Shown here: positions 4,939-40,579 of the stretch, piece after piece
How positions within the stretch are numbered: the stretch's first letter is position 1
How the letters are laid out: every line of letters begins with the position of its first letter
Origin: Patescibacteria group bacterium
GTDB taxonomy: Bacteria; Patescibacteriota; Minisyncoccia; Minisyncoccales; JAHCRE01
NCBI GenBank assembly: GCA_020148055.1
Contig: JAHCRF010000005.1
Coordinates: 1-41,789, forward strand
Length of the DNA: 41,789 nucleotides
Direction of reading: 5' to 3'
Notes under the pieces: generated by a model
The model's database searches: none
The model's input: only the letters and a program-made list of their open reading frames with translations
Told to the model about the DNA's origin: nothing
Translations under genes and position numbers: made by a program

Positions 4939-4978
4939 AAATTTTTAATCTTTAAGCGAGGGAACCAAAAGTGATGGA

Positions 4979-5118
4979 ACCAATTTTTATGGACCATCCG
5001 CAGCGAGTTGGCATGGTCTCGCCGAAGGCGAGCAACTCGCGAGGAAATGAGCTTGCTCCTCGCTGGGGAGCAGAGCGTGTCCTAAAAATTGCGTTGCCGA
5101 GCGTATCACCAATTTTTA
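4979..5118. repeat. MITE-like multi-hairpin element between rnc and rpsP flanked by 11-bp direct repeats
   Basis: Direct repeats ACCAATTTTTA at 4979-4989 and 5108-5118; inverted repeat CAATTTTTA-t-GGAC (4981-4994)/GTCC-TAAAAATTG (5079-5091); internal hairpins CGAGTTG..CTCGCC-gaa-GGCGAG..CAACTCG, GCGAGGA..TCCTCGC, TGCTCC..GGAGCA. Confidence 0.65.
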
Positions 5119-6591: not shown

Positions 6592-6684
6592 ATGTGCTTA
6601 CGCTTAAATCAAAAATTAAAAATGAAAAGTTAAAAATTATTAACTAAAAACAATATTAGCATAGAAAATTTAATTTTACAAGGA

Positions 6685-7489: not shown

Positions 7490-8536
7490 ATGGAAAGGAG
7501 GTGGATAGAAAGAATAAGAAAAATGGGTAATGAAGAACTACTGAAAACTACAAGGAGAGGGGGACTTCTTAGCCTAAAAATTGCAGAAGAAATATTTTCA
7601 AGGATATTAGAAGGAGGAATCACTGATGAAGATAAATATCTCCGAGCTATACTCGAGAGTATCAAAGTAGGAGGAGGGCCAAAAACTCAGAGAAAGGCAA
7701 AAGAAATGAAAGAGAAAGCTTCTAAAACAATGATTGAAAAGGGATACTTAGATGAACGTAATTTATCGACTATCCTCAGGGAGATAAACTCTCAGAAAAT
7801 ATTAGAAAGAGCAGTAAGAAAATGCCTTGCAAAAGATGGAAATATTCCAAATTATCTCTTAAGAGAGATGATTCGGCGGATTAAATCATTATCATTAAAA
7901 GAAACATTGGCAAAGAGGATTTTGAACCAAAATCCAAATACTGATGATCTCCTCGTTATCGTGGAAGAACTCGAAGGATCTCCATTACAAATCGAGGCCG
8001 AGGAAAAACTTTGGAAAAGAGAAATGGAACCAGAAAATTTCACATGGCTTACAGGATTTGGGTCACCCTCACAGGCTGAGAGAAACTGGGAAAGAGGTAA
8101 AAGAGAAGGTATGATTGAAAAATTATCTGAAGATGACCTTTCTGAAATTCTTCGCTACACTGATTCTCAGGAAATAAAAGAAGAAATGATGGAGATTTTG
8201 CTAAACTTGGAAGATTTAACTATTGACCATCTAAGACCTGTTGTTGAGGCTTTGGAATCAATCAAAGTAGATGAAGAAACTCTTAAAAAGATAATGGACA
8301 GATTAGAATCTTTAAGATCGGTAACAGAAAAAAAAATATCTGAAAAAGGCAAAAATAAATGGGAACAATCTGAGACTCTTGATTCAATAGGAAAGTTGAA
8401 GCAAAAAGTCAAAGAGGTCTTTAAAAATCTTAAGGAGGGAAATGAACTTGCGAAAGCTAGTTTTCTAGCAGAAGCTGGGAATGAAATTCTCAGCTCTTTT
8501 TATTTTCTCATTGACTTATCTTTTTTAAAAAACTAA
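7490..8536 (+). CDS. hypothetical alpha-helical-repeat protein
   Basis: 348 aa charged helical ORF; repeated pattern DDL..I...(x)S..I.EEA...L (e.g. NPNTDDLLVIVEELEGSPLQIEAEEKLWKRE; SEDDLSEILRYTDSQEIKEEMMEILL; TIDHLRPVVEALESIKVDEETLKKIM). Confidence 0.8.
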   Translation: MERRWIERIRKMGNEELLKTTRRGGLLSLKIAEEIFSRILEGGITDEDKYLRAILESIKVGGGPKTQRKAKEMKEKASKTMIEKGYLDERNLSTILREINSQKILERAVRKCLAKDGNIPNYLLREMIRRIKSLSLKETLAKRILNQNPNTDDLLVIVEELEGSPLQIEAEEKLWKREMEPENFTWLTGFGSPSQAERNWERGKREGMIEKLSEDDLSEILRYTDSQEIKEEMMEILLNLEDLTIDHLRPVVEALESIKVDEETLKKIMDRLESLRSVTEKKISEKGKNKWEQSETLDSIGKLKQKVKEVFKNLKEGNELAKASFLAEAGNEILSSFYFLIDLSFLKN

Positions 8537-8557: not shown

Positions 8558-11500
8558 ATGCCAAAGTTTACTCACCTTCATGTCCATTCGCATTATAGTT
8601 TGCTTGATGGTTTGCCGAAAATCAACGAGCTTTTAGATTATGCGAAGGAGCTGGGAATGGAGTCCTTAGCCCTAACTGACCATGGAGTACTTTACGGAGC
8701 AGTTGAATTTTATAAAAAAGCAATGGAGCGCAAAATTAAACCAATCATTGGGTCAGAAATATATATGGCTCATGAGAAGATGAGTCAAAAGAGACCGAAT
8801 ATCGATGATAAAAGATATCATTTGGTCCTCTTAGTAAAAAATGAACAAGGTTACAGGAATTTGGTCAAATTAATAACTAAAGCTCACTTGGAGGGATTCT
8901 ATTATAAACCGAGAATTGATGAGGAATTACTGGCGGAGCACAGTTCAGGTTTAATTTGCCTTTCGGGATGTCTGCAGGGGAAAATTCCGAAATTAATTTT
9001 GGCTAAAAAAAATGAAGAGGCTGAAAAATTGGTTTTAAAATATCAAGAAATCTTTGGAAAAGATAATTTTTATTTGGAAGCTCAACATCATCCCAATATC
9101 AAAGAGCAAAAAATTGTTAATCAGGCTTTAATTTCAATTTCAAAAAAAATAGGTATACCTCTAGTTGCTACCAATGATATCCATTATCTAAGACCAGAGG
9201 ATGCTAAAGCTCAGGATATTTTAATGTTAATTAATACTGGGGCTGATCCAAACGATCCCGAAAGACTCACTTTAAAGTCTGATGATTTTTCGATGAGAAG
9301 TCCTCAGCAAATGGAAAGAGATTTCAGAGATTTGCCCGAAGTTATTGAAAATACCCAAAAAATTGCCAATCTCTGTGATTTTCAATTCAAATTAGGAGAA
9401 ATTAAGCTTCCAGACTTTCCTATTCCCTCTCAAAAGAATCCAGATGAATTTTTAGAGGAACTCTGTTTACAAGGATTGAAAGAAAGATATGGTTCATCCC
9501 CGAAAAAGGAGGCTCTGGAGAGACTAAAATACGAACTCTCAGTTATTAAAGAAACTGGTTTTTCCTCCTATTTTTTGATTGTCCAGGATTTTGTTAATTG
9601 GGCAAAGGAAAATAGGATTGTGGTTGGGCCAGGTCGAGGGAGTGTCGGTGGCTCTCTTGTAGCTTTCGCATTAGGAATTACCAACGTTGATCCTTTAAAA
9701 TATAACCTCTTGTTTGAGAGATTTTTAAATCCCTCTCGCATCTCAATGCCCGATATCGACCTCGACTTTACAGATAGAAGAAGAGATGAAGTAATAAATT
9801 ATATCACTCAAAAATATGGTCAAGATAAAGTAGCTCAGATTATCACTTTCGGAACAATGGCCGCTCGGGCAGTAATAAGAGATGTAGGAAGGGCTCTTGA
9901 ATATTCTTACAGTTACTGTGACCGGATAGCAAAGATGATTCCTTTTGGTTTCACTTTAGATAAAACCTTAGAAAAAATTAGTGATTTTCACCAAACTTAC
10001 GAAACTGACGAGAAAGCGAGAAAACTGATTGATTTTGCTAAGAAATTGGAGGGGGTAGTACGTCATGCCTCAACCCATGCTTGTGGAGTAGTAATCTCAA
10101 CCACACCTCTTGATAATATTGTACCCCTACAACATCCCACTCAGAACGATGAAGCTATTGTCACCCAATATGAAATGTATTCTATCGAAGATCTGGGACT
10201 TTTAAAAATGGATCTTTTGGGATTAAAAAATTTAACCATTATCGAAGATACTTTGGCTCGAATTTACGTAGTTCAAAATAAAAACGTTAATATTGAAAAC
10301 ATCCCTTTAGACGATGGAAAGATTTTCAAGCTCTTCCAAAAAGGAGAAACAATCGGAGTATTTCAGCTAGAATCGGAAGGAATGCGAAGATATTTAAAAC
10401 AATTGAGTCCAACTAAATTTGAAGATATTGTCGCCATGATTGCTCTTTATCGACCGGGACCAATATCTCTTATTCCAGAATATATTCAAAGAAAACAAGA
10501 GAAAAAAAAGATTGAATATTTGCATCCGAAATTAAAATCAATTTTAAAAAACACTTATGGCGTAATGGTTTTTCAGGAACAGTTAATGCAGATTGCCCAA
10601 AAATTAGCAGGTTTCTCTTTATCCGAAGCCGATATTTTAAGAAAAGCTATTGGAAAGAAAATTAGATCATTGCTCATCTCCCAAAAAGAAAAGATGATAG
10701 ATGGAATGATAAAAAATGGAATAAAAAGAGAGGTAGCTTTAAAAATCTGGGAATGGATTTTGCCATTTGCCAGATACGGATTTAATCGCGCCCATTCAAC
10801 AGCTTATGCCACTATTGCCTATCAAACAGCCTACTTGAAAGTTCATTTCCCAATAGAATTTATGGCAGCTCTTTTAACTTCTGAAAAAGCAGATACCGAA
10901 AGAATTGGCTTTTTAATTACTGAGGCTAAAAAAATGGGAATTGAAGTTTTGGCTCCAGATATAAATGAGAGTTTCAGGAACTTTTCGGTAATACCAAAAG
11001 AAAAAAAGATCCGTTTTGGATTATTAGCAATTAAAAATGTAGGAGAAAATATTGTTGAATCAATTATTTCAGAGAGAAAGGCAAGAGGTCCTTATCAATC
11101 AATCGATGATCTCATCTCCAGAATAAGTTCAAAAGATTTAAATAAAAAATCTTTGGAGAGTTTAATTAAAGCTGGGGTTTTTGATAAATTCACTGAAAGA
11201 AATCAGCTTTTATTCAACTTGGAAAGACTTTTAGAATTGAATCGAGAAAATCATAGAACAAGGATAACAGGTCAAAAAGGGCTTTTTGATGCCTTGCCTA
11301 CCGGCAGGCAGGGAATGAAATTTACCCTTTCACCCACTTCTCCAGCCACCAAATCGGAAAAATTAGCTTGGGAAAAAGAACTCCTTGGTCTTTTTGTTAG
11401 TTCCCATCCTTTGGAAGATTTTAGAAAAATTTTAGAAAAAAAGACAATGAAAATCTCTGATTTGGGTCCTACTTTAATTAATCGACAAATCAAAGTCGGA

Positions 11501-14977: not shown

Positions 14978-16306
14978 ATGAATTATTTTATTATAACTTA
15001 CGGATGTCAAATGAATAGAAGTGATTCTGAAAGAATTGCTGCAGTTTTAGAGAAAATGAATTATGAAAAAGCTTCAAATATTAATGAGGCTGATTTGATA
15101 GTGGTTAATATGTGCTCGGTAAGGCAATCGGCAGTTGATAGAGTTTATGGAAACATAAAAAATTTCGAAAAATTGAAAAGAAAAAATAAAAATCTAAAAA
15201 CTTTATTGACTGGTTGTATTTTAAAATCAGATTTAGAAAAATTTAAAAAACATTTTGATTTTATTTTATCGATTAAAGCACTTTCTTATTGGCTAGAAAT
15301 TTTGAGAAAAGGGAAATACTTTTATTATCCCGATCCAAGAGATGACAAATTTAATGAAGAGTTTAATGCTTTCTATTTAAAAGAAAAACAAAAATACTCA
15401 AATAATTTTTCAGCCTTTGTGCCAATTATGACAGGGTGTAATAATTTTTGTGCTTTTTGCGTTGTTCCCTATGTTAGAGGACCTGAAATTTCAAGAAAAG
15501 CAAAAGATATAATTCTTGAGATTGAAAATCTTATAAAAAATAACTTTAAAGAAATTTGGCTCTTAGGACAAAATGTAAATAGCTACAAAGATGCAAATAT
15601 TAACTTTCCAAAACTTTTGAAAATGGTAAATGAAATCCCCGGTAATTTCTGGATAAGATTTACTTCTTCTTATCCGAGAGATTTCTCTGATGAATTAATT
15701 GATACGATGGCTGAATGTGAAAAAGTGACCGAATATTTGAATTTGCCAGTTCAATCAGGAGATGATGAAATTTTGAAGAAAATGAATCGCCCTTATACTA
15801 TTGAGAAATATAAAAAAAGAGTGAAAAAAATCCGAGAGAAAATTCCTAATCTTACTTTATCCACTGATATTATTGTTGGTTTTCCAGGCGAAACTGAAAA
15901 ACAATTTAAAAATACCCTATCGCTTTTTAAAGAAATAAAATTCGATATGGCCTATATTGCAAGGTATTCTCCTCGGCCTGGCACTGTGGCAGCAAAATTG
16001 AAAGATAATGTTCCATTAAAAGAAAAAGAAGAAAGACGGAAAACTTTAACCGAAATTTTAAAAGAAACTGCTTTAGAAAAAAATAAAAAATATGTTGGAA
16101 AAGAAGTTGAAGTTCTCGTGAATGAATCACGAATTATAAATAATGAATTACGAATATTTTTAGGTAAAACACGGGCTTATAAAACTGTAAAAGTTCAAAT
16201 ACCAGATACTAGATACCAAATACCTAATACTAATTTAATTGGCCAGTTTGTAAAAGTCAAAATCGTTGACGCTTTGCCCTGGGGTCTAAAAGGAATTTTG
16301 ATATAA
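14978..16306 (+). CDS. miaB: tRNA-2-methylthio-N6-dimethylallyladenosine synthase
   Basis: YFIITYGCQMNRSDSERI, GCNNFCAFCVVPYVRGPE (CxxxCxxC), LGQNVNSY, LPVQSGDDEILKKMNRPYT, DIIVGFPGET; C-terminal TRAM carries low-complexity insertions. Confidence 0.96.
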   Translation: MNYFIITYGCQMNRSDSERIAAVLEKMNYEKASNINEADLIVVNMCSVRQSAVDRVYGNIKNFEKLKRKNKNLKTLLTGCILKSDLEKFKKHFDFILSIKALSYWLEILRKGKYFYYPDPRDDKFNEEFNAFYLKEKQKYSNNFSAFVPIMTGCNNFCAFCVVPYVRGPEISRKAKDIILEIENLIKNNFKEIWLLGQNVNSYKDANINFPKLLKMVNEIPGNFWIRFTSSYPRDFSDELIDTMAECEKVTEYLNLPVQSGDDEILKKMNRPYTIEKYKKRVKKIREKIPNLTLSTDIIVGFPGETEKQFKNTLSLFKEIKFDMAYIARYSPRPGTVAAKLKDNVPLKEKEERRKTLTEILKETALEKNKKYVGKEVEVLVNESRIINNELRIFLGKTRAYKTVKVQIPDTRYQIPNTNLIGQFVKVKIVDALPWGLKGILI

Positions 16307-29365: not shown

Positions 29366-29402
29366 TATTATTTTGATTTTTGCATTTTAAATTTTGAATT
29401 TA
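29366..29402. repeat. 7-nt-period AT-rich tandem array (gyrB-pheT intergenic)
   Basis: ATTTTTG|CATTTTA|AATTTTG|AATTTAT. Confidence 0.5.
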
Positions 29403-38503: not shown

Positions 38504-38866
38504 TTATTTTTTGGCATTAAAAAATTTTTTTGTAAAGTCTATCGCCTTTTTATCATTAAATAATTTACAAGAAAAAATATTAATGAAAGCCCCATTCCAG
38601 AGTTCAGAAAAATGACCGGAAATTAAGCTTGACTCTATCAATTGAACCAAAGAGAAACCTACAGTAAAATCTTTTCCAAAACCAAATCTTTCTATAATTG
38701 GTTTACCATACTTTTCAACTTTTATCAAATCACAAAGCCGATTTGAGTATTCCAAAATTTTTTTCTTAGAACGAATAATTTTTGGGTCGCAATCAAAAAG
38801 ATCCAAAATCAATTCATTTCCATAAACTTTTGATTTTTGATTTTTGATTTTTGATTTTTTTATCAT
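38504..38866 (-). CDS. SpeD-like (AdoMetDC-fold) paralog
   Basis: NELILDLFDCDPKII...GFSLVQLIESSLISGHFSELWNGAFINIFSCKLFNDKKAIDFTKKFFNAKK aligns by eye with SpeD ESHxxxHTWPE...AIDxFTCG; begins with KSKIKNQKSK heptamer-derived tract. Confidence 0.78.
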   Translation of the reverse strand: MIKKSKIKNQKSKVYGNELILDLFDCDPKIIRSKKKILEYSNRLCDLIKVEKYGKPIIERFGFGKDFTVGFSLVQLIESSLISGHFSELWNGAFINIFSCKLFNDKKAIDFTKKFFNAKK

Positions 38867-39697: not shown

Positions 39698-40579
39698 TTA
39701 CTTCAGGTACTGTATTTCCTCTTCCAATTTTATGCCAAATTTATTTTTGACTTTCTGTTTTATTAATTTTATCAATTTTATTACATCTTTTGCTTTTCCA
39801 TTTCCTGAATTTACAATAAAATTGGCGTGTCTGTCAGAAATTTTAATATTTCCAATCGCTTTTCCTTTTAATCCACACTTTTCAATTAATTCTGCTGCAA
39901 AAAATTTTTTTGTATTTTTAAAAATAGAACCAACTGAAGAAAAATTCAAAGGTTGCGTTTCCTTCCGATACTCTAAGAATTCTTTCACCCTGTTTTTGAT
40001 TTTTTCTTTATCCCCTTTTTTGAGTTGAAGTTCGGCTGAAAGGATTATCAAATTTTTCTTTTTTTTGAAAACACTATCCCGATAACTAAATTTACAATCT
40101 TTTAATTCGTAATTCTTGATTCTTGATTCAGCCACATCAAATACCTCAACCTCTTTAACAATATCTGCCATCGATCTTCCAAAGGCACCGCAGTTCCCAG
40201 ATATCGCCCCACCAACTGTTCCCGGAATTCCTATTGCCCATTCTAGACCCGCTAAATTATTTTTAAAAGCAAAATTAACTAATTGACCCAAGAGTGCTCC
40301 CGCTTCAGTATAAATTCTTTGATTTTCGATTTTTGATTTTTGATTTTTGATTTTTATAACTAATCCTTTGTATCCCTCATCCGAAACCAAAATATTGCTT
40401 CCTTCCCCTAAAATAAAAAATGGCAAGTTATATTTTTTGGCCGCTGAAACTGCCGAGATTATTTCTTTTTTTGTTTTTGCCACAAAAAAATATTTGGCCT
40501 TACCACCAATTTTAAAAGTTGTGTAATTTTTCAACAAAACATTTCTTTTAACTCCAGGGGGTAATTTCTTAAAGTCCAT
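39698..40579 (-). CDS. murB: UDP-N-acetylenolpyruvoylglucosamine reductase
   Basis: NYTTFKIGGKAKYF...FFILGEGSNILVSDEGYKGLVIKI...GLEWAIGIPGTVGGAISGNCGAFG...NFSSVGSIFKN; two heptamer-derived insertions. Confidence 0.97.
   Translation of the reverse strand: MDFKKLPPGVKRNVLLKNYTTFKIGGKAKYFFVAKTKKEIISAVSAAKKYNLPFFILGEGSNILVSDEGYKGLVIKIKNQKSKIENQRIYTEAGALLGQLVNFAFKNNLAGLEWAIGIPGTVGGAISGNCGAFGRSMADIVKEVEVFDVAESRIKNYELKDCKFSYRDSVFKKKKNLIILSAELQLKKGDKEKIKNRVKEFLEYRKETQPLNFSSVGSIFKNTKKFFAAELIEKCGLKGKAIGNIKISDRHANFIVNSGNGKAKDVIKLIKLIKQKVKNKFGIKLEEEIQYLK

Follow-up and report, generated by a model that had tools for sequence, protein, structure and literature searches.

In Rickettsia, palindromic elements of several related families insert repetitive DNA in frame into permissive parts of conserved proteins; the arrays described here have neither a palindrome nor a common sequence. 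Heptanucleotide repeats are over-represented in prokaryotes, with a sporadic distribution across taxa, and slippage over the length of DNA contacted by the polymerase has been proposed as the reason (Mrazek et al. 2007, as related in PMC4679880 and PMC4692102). As far as those two accounts describe them, they share with the present arrays the excess of unit size 7, but here about 70% of arrays lie in ORFs, almost each locus has a unit of its own, and the same sites recur between relatives with other units. The TAACTGA direct repeats of Beggiatoaceae, Cyanobacteria, and Bacteroidetes, for which a nucleoid or regulatory role was proposed, are also few-copy heptamer arrays, some of them in ORFs at protein peripheries, but they have one fixed unit and are mostly intergenic, directly upstream of start codons (PMC4679880), whereas here many different units occur and 44 of the 63 arrays fall within ORFs. 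The GGGAATC and GGGGAYT repeats of Xanthomonas and Nostoc are likewise heptamers of about four units, some in inverted pairs, and vary in length and sequence between relatives; however, they form one G-rich, quadruplex-capable family of which only about 7–11% is intragenic in Xanthomonas (PMC4692102), whereas the present units are mostly A/T-rich and not of the G-rich type with G3–4 tracts. Borg tandem repeats resemble the present arrays in being A-rich, having site-specific units and fast turnover, lying within ORFs, and using hotspots common to relatives, but they belong to archaeal extrachromosomal elements, and in ORFs their units are perfect, often long, and divisible by three (PMC9879509), while the unit was 7 nt in all ORF arrays counted here. 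Finally, the constant-size, variable-sequence tandem repeats of Bacillus also hold their size while the unit sequence varies, though the unit is 52 or 20–21 nt, not 7 (PMC8161180). In the open-licence literature we found no account of recurrent-site, unit-switching heptamer arrays in essential genes of Patescibacteria. Heptanucleotide repeats and their excess are known; what appears to be new is dense, in-frame, site-recurrent, and unit-switching arrays in essential genes.

Two heptamer arrays in the TRAM region of miaB

The window, i.e. the whole stretch of 41,789 nucleotides that was analyzed, is one of 14 contigs of a draft metagenome-assembled genome (MAG) of 487,415 bases from a Patescibacteria group bacterium. 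An uninterrupted ORF on its forward strand (14978–16306) encodes a genuine MiaB, tRNA N6-isopentenyladenosine methylthiotransferase: a profile search scored 428 bits against TIGR01574 (cut-off 355), Pfam recognized the UPF0004, Radical_SAM, and TRAM domains (the last at residues 370–441), the radical SAM motif CxxxCxxC is present, and the nearest solved structures are PDB 7mjz (E 7e-80) and 7mjv. A sequence-only reading of this gene had reported two in-frame heptamer arrays of strict 7-nt period and unrelated unit sequence in the TRAM region, where MiaB usually has short loops. Both arrays exist, are in frame and have unrelated units, though each begins one base earlier than had been given. 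Array 1 (16125–16159, forward strand) consists of five degenerate units of the AATNAYG type (AATCACG, AATTATA, AATAATG, AATTACG, and AATATTT), and array 2 (16197–16231, forward strand) of five NNATACY units (AAATACC, AGATACT, AGATACC, AAATACC, and TAATACT); the peptides they encode read NESRIINNELRIF and QIPDTRYQIPNTN, respectively. The strict period holds for array 2, in which 21 of 28 positions match at lag 7 (shuffle mean 9.1; none of 20,000 shuffles reached 21), but not for the degenerate array 1, which has 16 matches of 28 (shuffle mean 9.6; P about 0.005) and is absent from the TRF output. Array 1 would be weak if taken alone, but a near-identical sequence (NESRIMNNESRIF) at the same site of a congener supports that it is real.

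The placement in the TRAM domain was borne out, both by the Pfam boundaries and by an AlphaFold2 model (mean pLDDT 88.4), in which array 1 forms the end of strand 376–387 and the turn after it, and array 2 lies in a loop with a mean pLDDT of 57 (residues 411–420) that drops below 50 at residues 412–414. At both sites most MiaB proteins of the order are 5–8 residues shorter, as the earlier reading had expected, and in the comparison with relatives that it had suggested the array residues were not found in order-level MiaB proteins. The site of array 2 carries NNATACY in this genome, CAATYAA in the congener, and CTACAAA in a further member of the family.

It had also been singled out that the frame stays open although a period of 7 shifts it with each unit. 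The frame is indeed open, but no special explanation is needed: successive units of a tandem heptamer fall into each of the three frames in turn, and three or more of them stay open only where the unit is stop-free, so that the miaB arrays are open because survivors in genes must be of this kind. Stops occur on both strands in 15 of 19 intergenic units, while 37 of 44 coding units are stop-free on at least one strand.

A genome-wide population of 7-nt arrays

We counted islands with at least 22 of 28 matches at a given lag, excluding N runs (C6:7087–7186 and 8725–8824, about 100 bases each) and the contigs C2 and C3, which are wholly N. The genome contains 63 islands at lag 7, compared with 1, 0, 3, 3, 3, 0, 0, 2, and 0 at lags 4, 5, 6, 8, 9, 10, 11, 12, and 13, respectively, so that the genome-wide excess at lag 7, proposed earlier as a check, was confirmed; multiples of 7 are raised as well (23 islands at lag 14 and 5 at lag 21). 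Thus, 7-nt units exceed both chance and other unit sizes, which places the arrays among heptanucleotide simple sequence repeats. With ORFs called by a simple script rather than a trained gene finder and counted from 80 codons upward, 44 of the 63 islands fall within ORFs (0–3 at other lags) and 19 outside, which corresponds to densities of 10.0 and 39.6 per 100 kb. Array length is narrow (mode 32 nt, nearly all 25–42 nt, 4–5 copies), whereas units vary widely by locus (AAAAGTC, CTACAAA, AACAGAA, GCGACAA, and others), some arrays being mosaics of neighbouring variants. The arrays are therefore present in miaB but not peculiar to it, a respect in which the earlier reading was incomplete, and on the best reading miaB is a bystander whose two arrays are ordinary members of this population, with no miaB-specific role.

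The window itself holds further members: an AAAAATC array inside murB (gene at 39698–40579; array at 40318–40355, reverse strand), a perfect AAAAATC array at the N-terminus of a 120-aa ORF (38828–38859, reverse strand), an intergenic AAAATTA array (6606–6639), and a weaker ATTTTGA array of 4.6 copies (29370–29401), the last three reported by TRF. Across the genome the hosts include LeuRS, GatA, a MurE-type ligase, TPI, Pth, MurB, a class I synthetase, GyrA, a P-type ATPase, ArgRS, UvrA, UvrB, TsaD, and TopA. In a few cases the array is found at a start codon or directly behind it (window 38828–38859; C9:15744–15774, C5:44620–44654, and C7:47794–47844), where it adds an array-encoded N-terminus or overlaps the gene start (the C7 gene begins MALTKTQKEKI). 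Such positions, together with the fact that a gene would be thrown out of frame if it lost or gained one 7-nt unit, might point to a regulatory or nucleoid role of the heptamer DNA or to a phase-variation switch. However, most arrays sit deep in essential housekeeping genes, the switching off of which would be lethal, and there is no common unit for one protein to bind. Given these hosts, a phase-variable contingency locus is unlikely, and we hold this group of explanations as a whole to be highly improbable.

Intergenic AATTATG-type arrays also occur as inverted pairs a few tens of bases apart (C5:70414–70480, 101736–101808, and 108659–108759; C6:53024–53095), which can fold into long imperfect hairpins and may act as terminators.

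Another candidate is selection at the protein level, with heptapeptide repeats kept as functional loops or amphipathic helices. A 7-residue pattern is already seen in the native consensus at MiaB 63–77 and LeuRS 270, and the array peptides reproduce it; of 84 coding arrays, 85% have an A-rich coding strand, and the T-rich ones give mostly hydrophobic peptides. Against this, array density is higher between genes, and the period is exact in the nucleotides; the hydropathy of an array does not track that of its flank (Spearman 0.13, P 0.24); and congeners have different peptides at a given site (amino acid identity 0.34). We accordingly regard protein-level adaptation as improbable.

Recurrent sites and switched units in relatives

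For comparison, we used two related MAGs, the congener (G001, 613 kb) and the family member (G002, 703 kb read of about 800 kb), so that the conclusions below rest on three related MAGs and on the homologs of two genes. At lag 7 there are 39 islands in the congener and 17 in the family member, and array density varies about five-fold within the family. Among alignable ORF arrays of our genome, 18 of 35 have an array of the congener at most 12 residues away (1.97 expected from random placement in the same genes), and 9 of 33 have a co-located one in the family member (1.40 expected). Similar recurrence was seen in protein sets that include other families of the order: 30 LeuRS proteins contain 23 arrays at few sites, with 38 pairs within 12 columns against 6.4 expected, and 41 MiaB proteins contain 14 arrays with 22 close pairs against 3.7 expected, all pair counts ignoring shared ancestry.

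The units at these recurrent sites are often different. In GatA the unit is AAAAGTC in our genome, AACATCC in the congener, and GAAATTA in the family member, and in TPI TCAAGTA is matched by GACAAGC. Nucleotide identity is 54% at aligned array positions, lower than at 4-fold sites (68.5%) and in the flanks (84%), and between congeners unit changes exceed length changes. That one site can carry different units speaks against simple inheritance. Some arrays are nevertheless inherited with small changes (ArgRS 67, LeuRS 271, and miaB array 1), and near-identical arrays occupy matching sites of separately assembled genomes at miaB array 1, ArgRS 67, TopA, and C6:21349. The latter observation bears on the suspicion, natural for a draft genome of 14 contigs, that the arrays are artefacts of MAG assembly; as reading frames also remain open across them and their length of about 32 nt falls below that of an ordinary read, this explanation is largely refuted and its residual probability is close to negligible.

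Insertion of a mobile repeat element, like the palindromic elements of Rickettsia, has some points in its favour. Identical-unit pairs number 21 in our genome, about twice the 10.8 expected from composition, AAAAGTC alone occurring four times, and palindromic elements of 30–45 nt are found in relatives, in frame, at permissive sites where other genomes have heptamer arrays. These lie in the MiaB loci L064 and L067 and in the congener's orthologs of our C6:21223–22155, C6:82438–83271, and C7:9266–11899; examples are GACTGCGATTTCTACGATCGTAGAAATCGCAGTC and, within a CAATCAA array, TCCTTCGACGGGCTCAGG...CCTGAGCGAAGTCGAACGG. The heptamer arrays themselves, however, vary in unit from one to the next, the listed ones share neither unit nor flank and are not self-complementary as a mobile element would be, many add no length, and no reverse transcriptase (PF00078) was found in our genome or in the family member. 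A mobile origin is thus very improbable.

Across the phylum, 31 of 379 genomes have AAAAGTC arrays, whereas the reversed pattern gives about 5, and the phenomenon is therefore patchy. An 11.7-kb contig of an uncultured Clostridia MAG (L178) has three heptamer arrays (1794–1832, 4971–5016, and 8072–8113), so it reaches beyond Patescibacteria. We also noted an octamer array (CACTCAAT-like) within C6:3601–5463 of our genome and in the family member's ortholog; in the congener this site is taken by a heptamer array that is just as long, and the congener has, in addition, 12 lag-8 islands.

Length-preserving replacement and the origin of the arrays

Several array-bearing segments keep the modal length of their protein family (MiaB 63–77 in 6 of 6 cases, LeuRS 230 in 4 of 5, LeuRS 270 in 6 of 7, and LeuRS 711 in 2 of 2), while at other sites the net gain is mostly about 4–13 residues and rarely 7. 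In three cases, selected for display and giving no rate, an outgroup polarizes a switch of unit at a length equal in all three genomes: (i) Pth, with CCCTAWA common to the congener and the family member and ACAGAAA in our genome, (ii) MurB, with AAAAATC in our genome and the family member and AGGTTAC in the congener, and (iii) LeuRS 231, with an ACAAGCG-like unit in the two relatives and AAATCTC in our genome. In all three the replaced units are as different as random ones. Measured by the 4-fold identity of the gene concerned, the replacements in Pth and LeuRS are conspicuous, whereas that of MurB is weaker (array identity 0.31 to the congener against 0.48 at the gene's own 4-fold sites); the global value of 0.685 overstates significance in fast genes such as this. 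Native sequence was also replaced by an array at equal length, at MiaB 63–77 in the congener and at C9:11107 in our genome, two cases likewise selected for display. In Pth, the two relatives have arrays of 93% identity, while 4-fold sites of the gene are 54% identical (congener C7:43899–44498 and its family-member ortholog), which suggests constraint or exchange and fits no simple model; its unit CCCTAWA equals the plant-type telomere unit, probably by coincidence.

These cases bear most directly on classical replication slippage, a serious rival in which a heptamer is duplicated unit by unit, homogenized, and left to drift (concerted evolution). It would account for the arrays inherited with small changes (ArgRS 67, LeuRS 271, and miaB array 1), for the mosaics with neighbouring variants, and for TopA, which differs between our genome and the family member by exactly 21 nt; likewise, paired units differ at a mean of 2.2 of 7 positions (3.0 for random units), near the neutral 4-fold difference, and an in-register test for gradual unit change was partly positive. 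But slippage that keeps the frame needs steps of 21 nt, while the net changes are mostly 0 or about 4–13 residues and rarely 7; Pth, MurB, and LeuRS 231 had whole arrays exchanged, without a change in length, for ones whose units are as different as random; and the excess is at 7, with none at 5, 6, 8, 9, or 10. We consider this rival rather unlikely.

The observations, namely specificity for lag 7, narrow size, variable unit, location in ORFs, recurrence of sites, and switching of units with little change in length, led us to propose that the arrays are probably products of a mutational process that steps by 7 nt, filtered by protein tolerance and without a miaB-specific function. Its most likely source would be that replication or repair re-synthesizes a short patch of DNA with slippage or template switching, in which the unit size is fixed and the unit sequence free, giving 4–5 copies over about 32 nt. 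Within a gene, an array would survive only if its unit is stop-free on the coding strand, its net length keeps the frame, and its peptide can be accommodated in a tolerant surface loop or helix, and a new array of a different unit could take the place of an old one. As survival would be limited to tolerant sites, these sites may therefore have been struck repeatedly in different lineages. We infer a single generator for all arrays, patch re-synthesis, and selection acting only as a filter. A more specific version, tentative and on balance doubtful, is an undescribed mechanism of some Patescibacteria in which repair or synthesis copies a 7-nt template four to five times and overwrites about 30–40 nt with little or no change in length, so that the same permissive loops of essential proteins would be rewritten time and again with new heptapeptide repeats.

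As for the enzymes involved, MutS was not found in any of 60 relatives (a match was obtained in 11 of 14 control genomes), which counts in favour of the proposed process, and a Y-family polymerase (PF00817) was not found in our genome or in either relative. Loss of MutS was rejected as a sufficient cause, with short-period islands (lags 4–6) being scarce and density varying about five-fold within the family. The absences of MutS, Y-family polymerase, and reverse transcriptase do not account for the number 7. For this preference the literature consulted offers only the polymerase-contact guess; this lineage provides dozens of comparable events per genome in alignable essential genes, which makes the question of "why seven" testable, and the birth, length, unit choice, and replacement of arrays measurable against neutral sites. 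If length-preserving replacement is true, it would diversify protein loops in a way that escapes ordinary substitution and indel models, and it would make loops unreliable in alignments of Patescibacteria proteins.
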